The notes under the pieces were generated by a model. It searched no databases. It was not told the DNA's origin and was given only the letters and a program-made list of their open reading frames with translations. DNA of 8,359 nucleotides from an uncultured Collinsella sp. (GTDB taxonomy: Bacteria; Actinomycetota; Coriobacteriia; Coriobacteriales; Coriobacteriaceae): contig CAUBGU010000062.1 in NCBI GenBank assembly GCA_958435545.1, positions 1 to 8,359 of the forward strand. The letters are read 5' to 3'. Shown one piece after another: positions 1,406 through 8,359 of the stretch (its first letter is position 1; each line of letters opens with the position of its first letter). Made by a program: the position numbers and the translations under genes.

Positions 1406-2407
1406 ATGGATACACTGCTCGAGGCCATTGACGTCTGCGATGTCGATGGCTTTTGCTATGGCAACTATACGGACGAGGAGGCCGGCACCGGTTGCACCGT
1501 AATCGTGGCACCCGAGGGCGCCACCGGCGGCGTTGACGTTCGCGGCGGTGCTCCAGCATCGCGCGAAACCGACCTGCTGCGACCCGAGAACACCGTCGAC
1601 AAGGTCCACGCCGTCTGCCTTTCGGGTGGATCGGCCTTTGGCCTCGAGGCTGCAAGCGGCGTCGCTCGCGAGCTTGAGAGCCGCGGCATCGGCCTTCCCG
1701 TCGGCCCCACGCAGGTGCCTATCGTGTGCTCCAGCTGTATCTTCGACCTCGCCTTTGGTAACCCCACCGTGCGCCCCGACATTGAGGCCGGCATCGCCGC
1801 CGTGCGCGAAGCACTCGACCACACCCCCACCAAGCTCGAACAGGGCAACGTAGGCGCCGGCACGGGCGCTACCGTGGGTAAGCTCATGGGGCCTGCCACC
1901 TGCATGAAGGCCGGCCTTGGAGCTGCCGCCGTGGCACTCGGCCCCATCAAGGTGGGCGCCGTGGTCTCGGTCAACGCCTGCGGCAACGTTGTCGACCCCT
2001 TCACCGGCGAGTGGGTCGCCGGCATGCGCGCCGCAGCCGATAGCGACCAGATCGTCGACATGGAACTCGCAGCCTTTGCCGCCGCCGGATCCATGCAGAT
2101 GCCGCTCGACCGCACCAACACCACCATCAGCTGCATCGTCACCAACGTGGAACTCACTAAGGCACAAGCCACCAAGGTCTCCCAGATGGCCGCAGACGCC
2201 TACGCACACGCCATCCGCCCCACACACACCACCAACGACGGCGACACCATCTACACCCTCGCCAGCGGCAAACTGGGCGCCCAGGCAAGCGCCGCCGTTC
2301 CCCTAGACCTGCTGGGCATGCTCGCCGTAAGGGCCCTGGAAACCGCCATCGTAAACGGAGCCAAAACCGCCAAAACCTCCCACGGCATCCCCGGCGCCGC
2401 GAAGTAG
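1406..2407 (+). CDS. P1 family peptidase (DmpA/S58, L-aminopeptidase/D-esterase type)
   Basis: The 333-residue protein follows the P1/DmpA Ntn-like hydrolase family. It has GTGCTVIVAPEGAT (27-40), the LSGGSAFGLEAASGV block (72-86), NVGAGTGATVGK (148-159), VVSVNACGNVVDP (186-198), and the NTTISCIVTN segment (238-247) followed by IRPTHTTNDGDTIY (270-283). In this family the precursor cuts itself before a Ser or Thr that becomes the N-terminal nucleophile of the small subunit. Here the expected cut is Asn238/Thr239, giving subunits of about 238 and 95 residues (inference from DmpA and BapA). Substrates are usually N-terminal residues of short, amide or beta-amino peptides; the specificity here is unknown. 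No signal peptide or membrane segment is visible, so it should be cytoplasmic. AGGAG (1395-1399) lies six bases before the ATG. The gene stands alone, 101 bases after maf, and ends in the palindrome at 2420. Confidence 0.92.
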   Translation: MDTLLEAIDVCDVDGFCYGNYTDEEAGTGCTVIVAPEGATGGVDVRGGAPASRETDLLRPENTVDKVHAVCLSGGSAFGLEAASGVARELESRGIGLPVGPTQVPIVCSSCIFDLAFGNPTVRPDIEAGIAAVREALDHTPTKLEQGNVGAGTGATVGKLMGPATCMKAGLGAAAVALGPIKVGAVVSVNACGNVVDPFTGEWVAGMRAAADSDQIVDMELAAFAAAGSMQMPLDRTNTTISCIVTNVELTKAQATKVSQMAADAYAHAIRPTHTTNDGDTIYTLASGKLGAQASAAVPLDLLGMLAVRALETAIVNGAKTAKTSHGIPGAAK

Positions 2408-2419
2408 CCTAACCTGACC

Positions 2420-2544
2420 GGTTGCCCGGTGGGGCTTGGTTATGTTTGCTGCTCTACAGTCCTGACTCGCACGAAGAGCACATTAAGTGCTCTTCGGCTC
2501 GTGCGGAACTCGCGACAAACATAACCAAGCCCCACCGGGCAACC
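2420..2544. repeat. nested palindrome A with conserved core (minus orientation)
   Basis: Outer arms 2420-2448 and 2516-2544 are perfect 29-bp inverted repeats. Inside lies a second hairpin: CGCAC (2468-2472), GAAGAGCAC (2473-2481), loop ATTAA, GTGCTCTTC (2487-2495), then an unpaired GGCTC (2496-2500) and GTGCG (2501-2505). Bases 2456-2510 are nearly the reverse complement of 2664-2717 in palindrome B, differing at four stem positions plus one indel. It begins 13 bases after the peptidase stop, between convergent genes, so it may end transcription from the left, but there is no T-run after the arms. It may equally be a REP- or MITE-like repeat. Together with palindrome B it fills most of the 372-base gap between genes. 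Confidence 0.85.
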
Positions 2545-2576
2545 TACCAACCAGATTCTTTTCAGCCCAGGCCCCT

Positions 2577-2633
2577 GTGTACCGCGCGTCGAAGATCTTC
2601 AAATTCAGGCAGCCTGACAATCGATTCTTATAG
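2577..2633 (+). pseudogene. possible decayed inverted copy of the glycosyltransferase 3' end
   Basis: Frame 2580-2633 reads YRASKIFKF and then runs nine more codons (six of them RQPDNR) to TAG. The glycosyltransferase at 2780 ends YRLASKIFKFN on the other strand. At DNA level AAGATCTTCAAATTCA at 2592-2607 is an exact 16-base inverted copy of 2785-2800, and TACCG also matches at the same distance upstream. Nothing coding is visible further upstream in that frame because palindrome A intervenes. It is either the tail of a lost convergent paralogue or an inverted duplication around palindrome B. Confidence 0.35.
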
Positions 2634-2637
2634 CAGA

Positions 2638-2747
2638 GGCCCCTTGGCCTTTAGTTTGATACAAGTTCCGCACGAGCCGGAAAGCACTTAATGTGCTTTC
2701 CGTGCGAGCAGGACTGTTCGCAGTAGCAAACTAAAGGCCAAGGGGCC
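2638..2747. repeat. nested palindrome B with conserved core (plus orientation)
   Basis: Outer arms 2638-2658 and 2727-2747 are perfect 21-bp inverted repeats. The inner hairpin is CGCAC (2669-2673), unpaired GAGCC (2674-2678), GGAAAGCAC (2679-2687), loop TTAAT, GTGCTTTCC (2693-2701), GTGCG (2702-2706). The core 2664-2717 matches palindrome A in reverse orientation, and the differences keep the pairing. Both elements also share GTTTG and CAAAC at the inner ends of their arms (2654-2658 and 2727-2731 here). It lies 32 bases past the glycosyltransferase stop and may serve as its terminator, though without a T-run. Confidence 0.85.
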
Positions 2748-2779: not shown

Positions 2780-3811
2780 CTAGTTGAATTTGAAGATCTT
2801 TGAGGCAAGACGGTATAGGCCGAGTGTGGTTTTGTCACCGGCACGACCGCGCAGATTGGTGAAGAAGCCGACCACGCCGTAGCGGGCACGACGATACATG
2901 CGCTCGTCGTAGGCCTTCAAATCACTCCACAACGTCTTCAGGCGCTCGTCGGCACAATCCTCGTCGGAAAGCTTAGTAAGCACCGAGCAGATTGCCATCA
3001 TCATGGTGAAATAGCCCATCATGTACGAGCGCAGACGCGATGACTCAACATCGGTGTACAGATGGAACGACTCCATCATGATGCGCGTCACACGGAACTG
3101 CTGGTCCAGACGCTTGACCATCGTGGCCTCGTTGACGCTTTGGCCCTCGCGACCGATAAAGTAGCGATAGAGGTCGATGTCGGCGTAGTACATGGTCTTG
3201 CAGCGCGGCAGCGGCACGTAGGCGTAGATGTTGTCTACATAGAACGTGTGCGGCGGCATAGGCAGATTGGACGCGCGCAGCACATCCGTGCGATAGCACA
3301 GGCTGTGCATGAGTAGGTTCTGGTCCAGGCGGAAATGACCGATCTGATCCCAGGTAAAGATCTTTTTTCGCGGCAGGGCAAACTTGTAGCCAATAGCGGT
3401 GTGCGTACCCTCGTAAACCTTCTCGTACACATAGTTCGAGATAAAGAGGTCGACGCGCTGGTCGCGCTCCTCAAAACCGCGAAGAATCGAAAGCATTGTC
3501 GACAGGGCTGCGCCATCGAGCCAGTCGTCCGAGTCGACGACCTTGTAGTAGGTGCCCTGTGCCTCGCGCAAGCCCGAAAGGACGGCAATGCCGTGGCCGC
3601 CGTTCTCCTGATGTACCGCGCGGATGATTCCGGGGTAACGCGTCTCCCACTCATCGGCCTTGGCCGCCGTCTCGTCCTTGGAACCGTCATCGACGATGAT
3701 GATCTCGATATCGGTGGCGTAATTGCTCCCCTCCAGAATGGAGGTGATGCAATGGTCCATGTCCTTGGCGGCGTTATACGAGGGAATACCGAATGTTATG
3801 ACTTTATGCAT
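2780..3811 (-). CDS. family 2 glycosyltransferase (GT-A fold), surface glycan
   Basis: The protein has 343 residues from the chosen start. It opens MHKVITFGIPSYNAAK, typical of GT2 enzymes, followed by IEIIIVDDGSKDET (35-48) with the sugar-nucleotide-binding Asp41-Asp42, QENGGHGIAVLSGL (68-81), and VVDSDDW (91-97) holding the DxD metal site (Asp93, Asp95). The C-terminal half (about 150-343) is helical and basic toward the end, with no clear transmembrane segment, so it probably works at the inner membrane face. It transfers a sugar from a nucleotide donor to a growing glycan; donor and acceptor are not readable. Coupling to glf suggests galactofuranose or a partner sugar. An in-frame ATG at 3829 would add six residues. 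I prefer 3811, whose ATG overlaps the glf stop by eight bases (3804-3811); neither start has a good ribosome binding site, which fits translational coupling. Confidence 0.9.
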   Translation of the reverse strand: MHKVITFGIPSYNAAKDMDHCITSILEGSNYATDIEIIIVDDGSKDETAAKADEWETRYPGIIRAVHQENGGHGIAVLSGLREAQGTYYKVVDSDDWLDGAALSTMLSILRGFEERDQRVDLFISNYVYEKVYEGTHTAIGYKFALPRKKIFTWDQIGHFRLDQNLLMHSLCYRTDVLRASNLPMPPHTFYVDNIYAYVPLPRCKTMYYADIDLYRYFIGREGQSVNEATMVKRLDQQFRVTRIMMESFHLYTDVESSRLRSYMMGYFTMMMAICSVLTKLSDEDCADERLKTLWSDLKAYDERMYRRARYGVVGFFTNLRGRAGDKTTLGLYRLASKIFKFN

Positions 3812-5237: not shown

Positions 5238-6218
5238 ATGAGCGATTTCCTAAACCGTATGAAGTCTGCCGCCAAGGCCGACCTTAAGACGATCGTCCTG
5301 CCCGAGGGCGAGGATCCGCGCACTATCGTCGCGGCCACCAAAATCATCGAGGAGGGCCTGGCAAAGATCGTCATCCTGGGCAACCCCGACGAGATCAACG
5401 TTCCCGGCGCTACCGTCATCGACCCGCGCAATGCCGAGAAGCACGAGGAGTATGCGCAGAAGTTTGCTGAGCTCCGCGCCAAGAAGGGCGTTACCATCGA
5501 GCAGGCTCGCGCCCAGGTGATGGACGCCACCTACTTTGGCACCATGATGGTCAAGATGGGCGACGCCGACGGCCTGGTCTCCGGCGCCTGCCACTCCACC
5601 GCCGACACCCTGCGCCCTGCACTTCAGATCCTCAAGACCGCCCCGGGCACCAAGCTGGTCTCGGCCTTCTTCGTGATGTGCACCGACACCCCGCAGTTCG
5701 GCACCGACGGCACGCTGATCTTCGCCGACTGCGGCCTCAACATCAACCCGTCCTCCGACGAGCTCTCCGAGATCGCCATCGCCTCCGCTCACTCCTGGTC
5801 CACCTTCATGGGCAACGTTGAGCCGCACGTGGCCATGCTCTCCTACTCCACCATGGGCTCCGCCGGCGGCGAGGTCGCCAAGAAGGTCCAAGAGGCCGTA
5901 AAGTTCTGCAAGGAGAAGGCTCCCGAGCTCGCCATCGACGGCGACCTGCAGCTCGATGCCGCTATCGTCCCCACTGTCGCCCAGCTCAAGGCTCCCGGCT
6001 CCTCCGTCGCCGGTAAGGCTAACGTGCTGGTGTTCCCCGACCTCGAGGCCGGCAACATCGGCTACAAGCTGGTCCAGCGCTTCGCCGGTGCTGACGCCTA
6101 CGGCCCCATCCTGCAGGGCATCGCCAAGCCGGTTAACGACCTTTCGCGCGGCTGCTCTGCCGACGACATCGTGGGTGTCGTGGCCATCACCGCCGTCCAG
6201 GCTCAGATGGCTGAGTAG
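5238..6218 (+). CDS. pta: phosphate acetyltransferase (short form)
   Basis: The 326-residue enzyme converts acetyl-CoA and phosphate to acetyl-phosphate and CoA. It has LPEGEDPRTI (21-30), DGLVSGACHSTADTLRPALQ (111-130) with Arg126, FPDLEAGNIGYKLVQR (266-281), and the C-terminal GPILQGIAKPVNDLSRGCS (289-307). By alignment with the Methanosarcina thermophila enzyme, Ser303, Arg304 and Asp310 match its active-site Ser309, Arg310 and Asp316. It is the compact type, without the N-terminal regulatory domains of the long E. coli protein. AAGGAG (5228-5233) is four bases before the ATG, and a small stem (AGCG/CGCT, 5214-5224) abuts it. Codon use is strongly biased to C-ending codons, suggesting high expression. 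It faces ackA tail to tail instead of being in one operon with it. Confidence 0.96.
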   Translation: MSDFLNRMKSAAKADLKTIVLPEGEDPRTIVAATKIIEEGLAKIVILGNPDEINVPGATVIDPRNAEKHEEYAQKFAELRAKKGVTIEQARAQVMDATYFGTMMVKMGDADGLVSGACHSTADTLRPALQILKTAPGTKLVSAFFVMCTDTPQFGTDGTLIFADCGLNINPSSDELSEIAIASAHSWSTFMGNVEPHVAMLSYSTMGSAGGEVAKKVQEAVKFCKEKAPELAIDGDLQLDAAIVPTVAQLKAPGSSVAGKANVLVFPDLEAGNIGYKLVQRFAGADAYGPILQGIAKPVNDLSRGCSADDIVGVVAITAVQAQMAE

Positions 6219-6233
6219 CGGACGCACTCCCCC

Positions 6234-6364
6234 GAAGGGCGTACGGGCTAACCCCTGAAAACGTCCTCGACCAATGAAACGCCCCCGTTCTGCTCCTTCG
6301 GAGCTACGAACGGGGGCGTTTCTGGTCTGCGGAGTGTTTTCAGGGGTTAGCCCGTACGGCCTTC
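6234..6364. terminator. three-tier palindrome, bidirectional terminator between pta and ackA
   Basis: Outer arms 6234-6262 and 6336-6364 pair at 28 of 29 positions (one G-G mismatch, 6239/6359). Inside, GACCA (6269-6273) pairs with TGGTC (6323-6327), then a perfect 15-bp stem pairs 6276-6290 with 6308-6322 (GAAACGCCCCCGTTC and its complement), and at the tip GCTCC (6292-6296) pairs with GGAGC (6300-6304) around TTC. The 15-bp stem has A-rich and T-rich ends and is the likely terminator for pta. The outer arms add a much larger fold. The core seen in palindromes A and B is not present here. Confidence 0.8.
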
Positions 6365-6570: not shown

Positions 6571-7749
6571 TTAGTTGTTCTTGGTCAGGCGCTCGACGTC
6601 GTGGGCGATCATGTATTCCTCGTCGGTGGGGATGACCATAACCGTGACGGAAGAGCCGGCGGCGCTGATGACCTGTGGGCCGTTGCCCACGGCCTCGCGG
6701 TTCTTGTTGTTGTCGATGCGCACGCCCAGCCACTCAAAGCAGTCGCAGAAGGCCTTGCGGATCGACCAGTCGTTCTCGCCGATGCCGGCGGTAAAGGTAA
6801 TGGTGTCCACGCCCGCCATGGAAGCGATCATGGAACCGGCCTGCTGCATGGCCTTGTAGGCAAACATATCAAAGGCGAGCAGGCAGCGCTCGTCGCCCTC
6901 GGAGGCACGTGTACGGATGTCACGGGCATCGTTGGAGATGCCCGAGATGGCAAGCAGACCGGACTGCTTGTTCATCATGTCGTCGACTTCCTGGTAACTG
7001 TAGCCGCCCTCGCGCTGAAGATAGCACACGGTGGCCGGGTCGATGGAACCGCAACGGGTACCCATCATCAGGCCGTCAAGCGGCGTGAGGCCCATCGTGG
7101 TGTCGCGGCACACGCCGTCCTCAATGGCGGCAAGCGAAGCACCGTTGCCCAGATGGCACGAAAGCAGACGGTGGCAGCGCGAGCCCAGGATCTCCTTGGC
7201 CATCATCCACTCGTAGCGGTGGCTCGTACCGTGTGCGCCGTACTTGCGCACGTGGTACTTGTCGCACACGTCCTTGGGCAGCGCGTAGGTGTAGGCGACC
7301 TCGGGCATGGTCATGTGGAACGAGGTGTCGAAGACGGCCACGTTGGGCAGCTCAGGATACTTCTCGCGGCAATATTCGATTGCCGCGGCCTCGCCGTAAT
7401 TGTGCAGCGGAGCGAGCGGGGCCACCTCAAGGATCTTAGCCATAACCTCGTCGTCGACGACCGCGGAATCATCGAAGTGCCAGCCGCCCTGAACGATACG
7501 ATGGCCAATGCCATCAATCGTAAAGTCGGTCTTCTCGAGCTCCTCGAGCACGCGAGCGATAGCAGAGCGATGATCGGGGAAAGGGACCTCCTCGGTCTGC
7601 TTGGCGCCACCGTTCTCGGAGTGGCCAAAGATGCCCATGTCCGAACCGATACGTTCGCAGTTGCCCTTGGCGAAAACCTCGCGGGTATCGGTATCCAAAA
7701 GCTGATATTTAAGGCTTGAGCTGCCGGCGTTGACAACAAGTACGTTCAT
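6571..7749 (-). CDS. ackA: acetate kinase paralogue with altered substrate pocket
   Basis: The 392-residue member of the acetate/propionate kinase (ASKHA) family makes ATP from acetyl-phosphate. Matched residues from M. thermophila AckA are present: Asn7, Ser10, Ser12 (VVNAGSSSLK), Arg84, His116 (APLHN), Asp141 (VFDTSFH), His173, Asn202 (HLGNGAS), Arg232 (GTRCG), GIGEN (322-326) and Glu377/378 (PTDEE). Several near-invariant blocks differ: GHRIVQGG (82-89) where GHRVVHGG is usual, HNYGEAAA where HNPAN is usual, and YGAHGTSH (170-177) where YGFHGTSH is usual. Ala172 replaces the Phe179 of the acetate pocket; Val86, Leu115 and Pro223 of that pocket are kept. So it may use another short acid or differ in rate (inference). 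AAAGGAGT (7753-7760) precedes the ATG. It lies 164 bases downstream of a second acetate kinase gene, with a terminator between, so the two are separately regulated. Confidence 0.93.
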   Translation of the reverse strand: MNVLVVNAGSSSLKYQLLDTDTREVFAKGNCERIGSDMGIFGHSENGGAKQTEEVPFPDHRSAIARVLEELEKTDFTIDGIGHRIVQGGWHFDDSAVVDDEVMAKILEVAPLAPLHNYGEAAAIEYCREKYPELPNVAVFDTSFHMTMPEVAYTYALPKDVCDKYHVRKYGAHGTSHRYEWMMAKEILGSRCHRLLSCHLGNGASLAAIEDGVCRDTTMGLTPLDGLMMGTRCGSIDPATVCYLQREGGYSYQEVDDMMNKQSGLLAISGISNDARDIRTRASEGDERCLLAFDMFAYKAMQQAGSMIASMAGVDTITFTAGIGENDWSIRKAFCDCFEWLGVRIDNNKNREAVGNGPQVISAAGSSVTVMVIPTDEEYMIAHDVERLTKNN

Positions 7750-7913: not shown

Positions 7914-8359
7914 TTACTTGCCGTTGACGATGCGCTCGACGTCGGAAGCGATCATGAACTCCTCGTCCGTAGGGATGACGAAAATCTTGACGTTGGAATC
8001 CTTGGCGGACAGGCACCAAGCGCCGTCGCCACGCAGGGCATTACGGGCGTGATCCATCTTGACGCCCATAAAGGCCAGACGATCGGCCACGCCAGCGCGA
8101 ACGGCCGGAGCGTGCTCGCCGATGCCGGCGGTAAAGACCAGGGTGTCCATGCCGCACATGGAGGTGGCCATCTCGGCGGCCTTAGCGGCAATCTTGTAGA
8201 CGAACATGTCGAAGGCGAGCTGAGCCTCGGGGTCACCAGCAGCGGCGAGCTCCTCAACGTTGCGGCAGTCGTTGGTCTTGCCACCGGTCACAGCCAAAAG
8301 GCCAGACTTCTTGTTCATCATCTCGTCGACCTCGTCGAAGGTGTAGCCACCCTCGCGCT
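7914..8359 (-). CDS. ackA: acetate kinase, C-terminal part (gene runs off the window)
   Basis: The visible 148 codons read from REGGYTFDEVDEMMNKKSGLL to the stop TAA at 7914-7916 and are open to the window edge, so the N-terminal two thirds lie beyond 8359. It aligns with residue 246 to the end of the neighbouring kinase and keeps SGLLAVTGG, LAFDMFVYKI, FTAGIGEHAPAVR and VIPTDEEFMIASDVE. It has one codon more in the TGGKTND loop. GIGEHAPAVR is closer to common AckA enzymes than the neighbour's GIGENDWSIR. This may be the main acetate kinase of the Pta-AckA route, but the active-site residues that would show it (the Asn/Ser start, Asp141 and His173 equivalents) are outside the window. Confidence 0.94.
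   Translation of the reverse strand, partial: REGGYTFDEVDEMMNKKSGLLAVTGGKTNDCRNVEELAAAGDPEAQLAFDMFVYKIAAKAAEMATSMCGMDTLVFTAGIGEHAPAVRAGVADRLAFMGVKMDHARNALRGDGAWCLSAKDSNVKIFVIPTDEEFMIASDVERIVNGK

Follow-up and report, generated by a model that had tools for sequence, protein, structure and literature searches.

What are the two long hairpins that face one another between two convergent genes on a contig of an uncultured Collinsella sp. (CAUBGU010000062.1), and what might they do for their host? Within the window, that is, the whole 8,359-nt stretch analysed, a preliminary description had recorded a ~55-nt structured repeat in two opposite-facing copies. Recomputation returned the same match between 2456-2510 and the reverse complement of 2664-2717 (50 of 54 positions identical, one gap), and the four substitutions (A/G, G/A, C/T and T/C) do indeed form two compensatory pairs in the inner stem. 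The repeat is real, but its extent had been drawn too short: the true unit is about twice as long, and the 55 nt are its tip.

Each copy is a nested hairpin of 110-125 nt (Table 1). An outer stem (29 bp in copy 1, 21 bp in copy 2), whose sequence is unique to its site, encloses a 67-68-nt core, which combines a variable inner hairpin with an asymmetric internal loop that is conserved (TGCTC..ACAGTCCT opposite TGCGGAACTCGC). By inspection, AGTCC can pair with GGAACT across the internal loop, leaving one A unpaired. A repeat search of the window recovered the copy 1 arms as perfect complements over 29 nt, and the copy 2 arms as either 21 perfect pairs or 25 nt at 96% complementarity (2638-2662/2723-2747). 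At spacers of up to 130 nt, 29 nt is the longest perfect inverted-repeat arm in the window, against a maximum of 15 nt in 200 dinucleotide-preserving shuffles. Predicted folding energies are likewise extreme, at -89.3 kcal/mol for copy 1 (z -12.4) and -70.4 kcal/mol for copy 2 (z -9.3), with none of 200 shuffles equally low in either case.

Table 1. Features of the two facing hairpins, their neighbouring genes and a related hairpin in the window.
Feature	Position	Strand	Remarks
Gene with copy 1 at its 3' side	1406..2407	+	333 aa; no NCBIfam match at E<=1e-10
Copy 1, full nested hairpin	2420..2544	+	
Copy 1, left outer arm, 29 nt, site-specific	2420..2448	+	starts 12 nt past the stop of 1406-2407
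Copy 1, core 5' side, CTGCTCTACAGTCCTGACTCGCAC	2449..2472	+	conserved CAGTCCT at 2457-2463
Copy 1, inner hairpin GAAGAGCAC-ATTAA-GTGCTCTTC	2473..2495	+	
Copy 1, internal loop, conserved 3' side TGCGGAACTCGC	2502..2513	+	
Copy 1, right outer arm	2516..2544	+	perfectly complementary to 2420-2448
Copy 2, full nested hairpin	2638..2747	-	
Copy 2, right outer arm	2638..2658	-	
Copy 2, core, 68 nt	2659..2726	-	CAGTCCT at 2710-2716; inner hairpin at 2679-2701; TGCGGAACT at 2664-2672
Copy 2, left outer arm (own strand)	2727..2747	-	32 nt past the stop of 2780-3811
Convergent gene with copy 2 at its 3' side	2780..3811	-	glycosyltransferase-like; matches under curated cut-offs
F2 nested hairpin	6234..6364	+	29-nt outer arms, GTCCTCG..CTGCGGAGT loop, variable inner stem; ~15 nt past the stop of 5238-6218

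Each copy marks the 3' end of a gene, the two genes being convergent and the first of them presumably encoding a P1-family peptidase. The last codons of the glycosyltransferase gene are repeated in inverted orientation across copy 2 (2586-2607 against 2785-2806; 22 nt, 91%), possibly as the trace of an inverted duplication.

Genome and covariance-model searches have shown that the pair is far from alone, with many more intergenic copies in both the genus and the class. A pattern scan of species genomes returned 117 stretches, and all 80 of the 117 that were listed are titled Collinsella. At the scan loci the 67-68-nt core again tips a site-specific outer stem, commonly of ~20-44 bp; hits lacking that stem in the unfiltered list were mostly truncated by the end of a contig. 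Exact-pattern copies number 25, 24, 25, 26, 25 and 3 in six whole genomes (24-26 per genome in five Collinsella genomes), and the reversed pattern none. At 12 of the 80 listed loci the core starts or ends within ~50 nt of the end of the stored stretch (L016, L022, L023, L026, L035, L040, L046, L051, L063, L074, L078 and L080), and such palindromes may account for some of the contig breaks in Collinsella assemblies.

Beyond the genus, a covariance model built on 42 copies matched 94 of 197 Coriobacteriia genomes at E<=0.001, where E-values are rough and at most 22 candidates were scored per genome; a fuller search of 12 matching genomes found 8-41 copies in each. Since the other 103 of the 197 gave no match to the model, the class as a whole does not depend on the element. 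A second covariance model, built on 59 class-wide matches, was searched against 346 genomes of the phylum and matched 22 at E<=1e-5. Nineteen of these had already matched in the class search, and the three new ones (G217, G231 and G433), with one weak match each, may or may not be Coriobacteriia. Phage collections gave no match to the element. Plasmid collections gave one matching record, a 900-kb Collinsella sequence labelled Collinsella aerofaciens plasmid 6 (NZ_OY725717.1; loci L252-L259), which looks like a piece of chromosome because ribosomal-protein genes and groESL are aboard. Rfam 15 has no family at the element, whether in the window at E<=1 or at 17 + 19 loci at gathering thresholds, and no description of the family turned up in the open-licence PubMed Central papers searched. 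An element matched in about half of the sampled Coriobacteriia genomes, at up to 41 copies per genome, is thus nameless in the resources searched, and the borders it occupies are those of ribosomal-protein, chaperone, tRNA, RNA-decay and metabolic genes.

A second family, F2, is related to the first. Its searched loop pattern, GTCCTCG..CTGCGGA, occurs in 2-7 exact copies in six of eight genomes and in none of G070 and G159, and its inner loops are mostly C-TNC-G. By its anatomy the hairpin at 6234-6364 is a member, with CTGCGGAGT one base off the searched pattern; the gene before it (5238-6218) we take, from its neighbours, to encode phosphate acetyltransferase.

The clearest regularity of the main family lies in where its copies sit and which way they point. 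With gene calls made for this analysis in five genomes, 97 pattern matches were distributed over called genes (13, of which 11 weak), convergent gaps (24), codirectional gaps in sense (32) or antisense (24) orientation, and divergent gaps (4), so that 80 of the 84 copies outside called genes occupy convergent or codirectional (56) gaps. Of the 32 sense copies in codirectional gaps, 29 start no more than 65 nt from the upstream stop; of the 24 antisense ones, 3 lie that close to it (Fisher p=2e-9, assuming that copies are independent). In convergent gaps 21 of 24 copies are nearer the gene on their own strand. A single rule fits 71 of the 80: past a stop, a copy reads with its gene, and upstream of the following gene it reads against that gene. 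The exceptions are three of 32 codirectional sense, three of 24 codirectional antisense and three of 24 convergent copies, and the four divergent copies fall outside the rule. On NZ_OY725717.1, the one record for which NCBI annotation was used (incomplete in that form), all 11 exact-pattern copies obey it: five sense copies follow the stops of pnp, manA, tsaD and two hypothetical genes, and six antisense copies lie upstream of rnj, rplC, rpsL, groES, thrB and the gene for carbon starvation protein A. From these counts it follows that copies mostly point out of a gene into intergenic space and that paired copies in one gap face each other, as they do in the window. Copies might conceivably have formed the 3' ends of non-coding RNA genes, a candidate that was rejected: the tRNAs at L005, L064, L192 and L193 and the RNase P gene at L231 run opposite to the core strand, so those copies lie upstream of them.

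Predicted terminators add to this picture. In gene-end clusters of Collinsella loci with an element of the main family (F1), a terminator was called in 13 of 16, its median place lying at least 150 nt past the stop in 10; among element-free gene-end clusters one was called in 36 of 126, at a median of 32.5 nt, and only 1 lay at 150 nt or beyond. As the called terminators are mostly beyond the element, after-stop copies are predicted to lie often within the transcribed 3'-UTR.

Another line of evidence comes from the pairing itself. The preliminary description had read the kept pairing and constant loop as the product of selection on an RNA or single-stranded DNA fold, and further covariation is strong across the class: when 59 class-wide matches, 55 of them distinct, were aligned by fitting to the model (a procedure that favours structure), 97.2% of 1175 cells paired, a share that falls to 64.9% in shuffles and to 35-53% when partners are slid. 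Of the 22 pairs, 18 vary on both sides, leaving three conserved-loop pairs and one inner pair invariant. With further copies that keep their pairing, the preliminary description withstands the refutation test that it had set itself. Between sites both stems are replaced wholesale with Watson-Crick pairing kept, and the internal loop stays constant; the loops of the inner hairpin vary (ATTAA, ACT, ACC, GCT, GAAA and others). Covariation beyond the controls fits a DNA fold and an RNA fold equally.

The make-up of the pairs gives no support to an RNA fold in particular, as the wobble signature is absent. Among 142 distinct pairs of outer arms (4131 cells), 3979 cells are Watson-Crick, 70 A-C, 33 G-U and 49 other. 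About 20 of the A-C cases apparently represent one fixed place near the top of the outer stem, and without them, after de-duplication, ~43 A-C stand beside ~30 G-U. Inner stems give the same result (1458 cells: 1430 Watson-Crick, 7 A-C, 5 G-U and 16 other). RNA selection would prefer G-U over A-C; since that preference is absent, RNA-level selection on the stems is not claimed, and the counts argue for DNA-level copying, and not selection on RNA wobble, as what maintains the stems.

Sense copies lie directly downstream of nrdD in each of G004, G070 and G159, which with G006 are distant species of one genus search, and two or three of the four have further sites in common (upstream of rplC, in the pnp/rnj gap, upstream of leuS and others). 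At such shared sites the core is the same and the stems are largely or wholly different. Among strains, the copy-1 site occurs with two stem types between identical flanks. Across 17 site clusters, divergence per sequence pair was 0.3-0.6% in the core, 0.8% in the inner hairpin, 2.8-3.0% in the arms and 11-12% in the nearest 15-nt flanks (flanks differing at more than 6 positions were excluded, as were comparisons of cores or inner hairpins that differ in length); gene conversion between copies could be an alternative source of the low core divergence.

In 17 clusters of arms, 26 of 55 variable stem positions occur as two Watson-Crick types. Two kinds of allele are such as template switching would produce: the right half of copy 2 in L178 is a copy of the left half (a snap-back type), and the core has opposite orientations in L052 and L099 at one site. 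Copy 2 of L169 has lost its inner hairpin, and L182 is a recombinant with unpaired arms, so that pairing can also break. Because the mismatches carry no wobble bias and both snap-back and core-inversion alleles occur, upkeep of the stems looks like replication template switching. Hairpin evolution by that route has been reported to produce instant compensatory change and loop inversion (PMC8794818) and homogenised arms with an inverted spacer (PMC8604942), all of which resemble what is seen here. Those reports differ in that they concern a mutation mechanism and not a repeat family, whereas in Coriobacteriia the process acts round a conserved core. The family makes it a testable matter whether long perfect hairpins in bacterial genomes are kept by selection or by template switching.

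Some sites have been disrupted. On the 3' side of valS, 3 of 22 close strains (L269, L270 and L277) retain no more of the element than its left half, which in all three is cut at the same core position and fused to a different nested hairpin; beyond the half-element in L270 lies what we take to be an IS110-like transposase gene. In the first 200 bases of L179, copy 2 of the window's own site is broken, close to where the contig starts, by a different sequence that itself bears a hairpin and may be an insertion sequence that targets the palindrome.

Given the asymmetry of the loop, the way copies are oriented to transcription and their persistence at gene borders, we prefer, at a rough probability of 0.4, a Coriobacteriia-wide hairpin of transcription-unit borders that would act through outward RNA, its loop being recognised by a putative host factor. 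Given the orientation rule, an RNA polymerase exiting a gene unit either way would read the core strand. A conserved putative host factor could then bind the loop, displayed on a long rigid hairpin, on the RNA leaving the unit, whether that RNA were an mRNA 3'-UTR or a divergent transcript from upstream of a promoter. The effect might be to protect or trim the mRNA 3' end, or to stop outward transcription. The sequence of the stems would be immaterial, as template switching between the arms during replication would regenerate them and keep them perfect, occasionally inverting the core or snapping it back. Covariation, orientation, shared sites with a kept core, low core divergence, terminators beyond the element and template-switch-like alleles all speak for such a border RNA. 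Against it, G-U is not favoured over A-C in either stem on the core strand, and upstream antisense copies lie outside the usual mRNA. A bolder version, which we hold to be quite unlikely, would make the element a class-specific punctuation signal, presenting the same loop outward at the 3' end and upstream of the promoter, where a dedicated factor on nascent RNA would stop or trim transcription both ways while unconstrained stems were rebuilt by template switching. In any event, stems that are replaced around one kept internal loop provide a natural series in which the role of the loop can be isolated, and for one member of the class, E. lenta, a genetic toolkit has been reported (PMC9734109).

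A different way in which the hairpins could work is as DNA. Since the stems are strand-symmetric and copies also lie upstream of genes, one may conceive of a BIME-like border element whose cruciform or single-strand hairpin would serve, at each end of an active gene unit, as a supercoil barrier or as a site for gyrase or a nucleoid protein, the RNA being irrelevant. This is somewhat unlikely. The strictly Watson-Crick pairing suits it well, as do the upstream copies that precede rplC, rpsL, groES and tRNA genes and that adjoin, by eye only, promoter-like boxes; most F2 loops, moreover, are complementary to GNA triloops, which are stable in DNA. A symmetric topological site, however, needs no orientation rule tied to transcription, and the part that is conserved here is an asymmetric loop.

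A further alternative, and an unlikely one, is a non-autonomous mobile palindrome of REP- or MITE-like kind, for which a putative transposase would favour gene borders in one orientation and whose conservation would reflect mobility and gene conversion. Dispersed copies, facing pairs and intergenic sites are what such an element would leave, and one copy with an unusual core (L260, genome G003) lies beside genes that we take to be of ABC-transporter-like type, in a segment perhaps transferred horizontally. The preliminary suggestion of a REP/BIME-like element holds in part, as REPs too are interspersed extragenic palindromes, mainly in convergent or codirectional gaps and often in inverted facing pairs (PMC3733652). 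But REPs are described as 20-40 bp long, each family having a single sequence and a tag, either GTAG or CGTC, and the GTAG type going with RAYT transposases (PMC3733652), whereas the Coriobacteriia unit measures ~100-160 nt, has stems without fixed sequence and is conserved in its internal loop only. Inspection of the stem ends and arms, which vary by site, showed no palindrome of fixed sequence tagged by GTAG or CGTC. The main text of PMC3733652 contains neither "Actinobact-" nor "Coriobacter-", nor the names of four Coriobacteriia genera.

The REP-associated tyrosine transposase that had also been anticipated fails as a general partner: Y1_Tnp is present in five of nine copy-bearing genomes and absent from the other four (G042, G058, G159 and G070), which hold 41, 29, 23 and 13 model matches and include the richest genome. 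There is no sign of a larger version either. In six genomes counted both ways, TGCGGAACTCGC is rarer than the full pattern, and nearly all of its places are full elements; those outside the full-element lists are G001:C21:14943, G004:C2:656704 and G159:C3:563621. A larger autonomous version was therefore rejected, the half-element pattern not being in excess. Nor do copies have terminal inverted repeats in common, and since the arms are site-specific and not shared terminal repeats, the element is not a classical MITE. Distant species, furthermore, share sites with the core intact, and no clean empty site was found at either of the two sites examined (GT2 and valS), where distant species show different neighbours or an ordinary terminator. 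The structured RNA candidates proposed by comparative genomics (PMC2864571) and Rfam families resemble the element in having a conserved loop, covarying stems and intergenic positions; they differ in that here both stems are replaced in full, hardly any G-U pairs occur and the copies are scattered over many unrelated genes. We have not filed it as a member of REP/BIME, MITE or any Rfam family.

Finally, that the elements are simply the intrinsic terminators of the class, merely of unusual length, is very improbable and was dropped as the main reading on account of the called terminators beyond them: a stable hairpin does lie 1-46 nt past the stop in 27 of 32 codirectional sense copies, element-free species often have an ordinary terminator-like hairpin in that place (by eye) and no other terminator was called at either gene end in the window, but inspection of the right flanks shows the T-tract to be absent right after the hairpin, and the element is also found antisense, upstream of genes.

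Two other features of the window are worth recording. At 40-93 there is a perfect 23-bp hairpin whose loop measures 8 nt; with the CTTTTT that follows, it has the form of an ordinary terminator of unusual length. The adjacent open frames at 6571-7749 and 7914-8357, presumably tandem acetate kinase genes, contain repeated stretches of DNA that are 75-86% alike.
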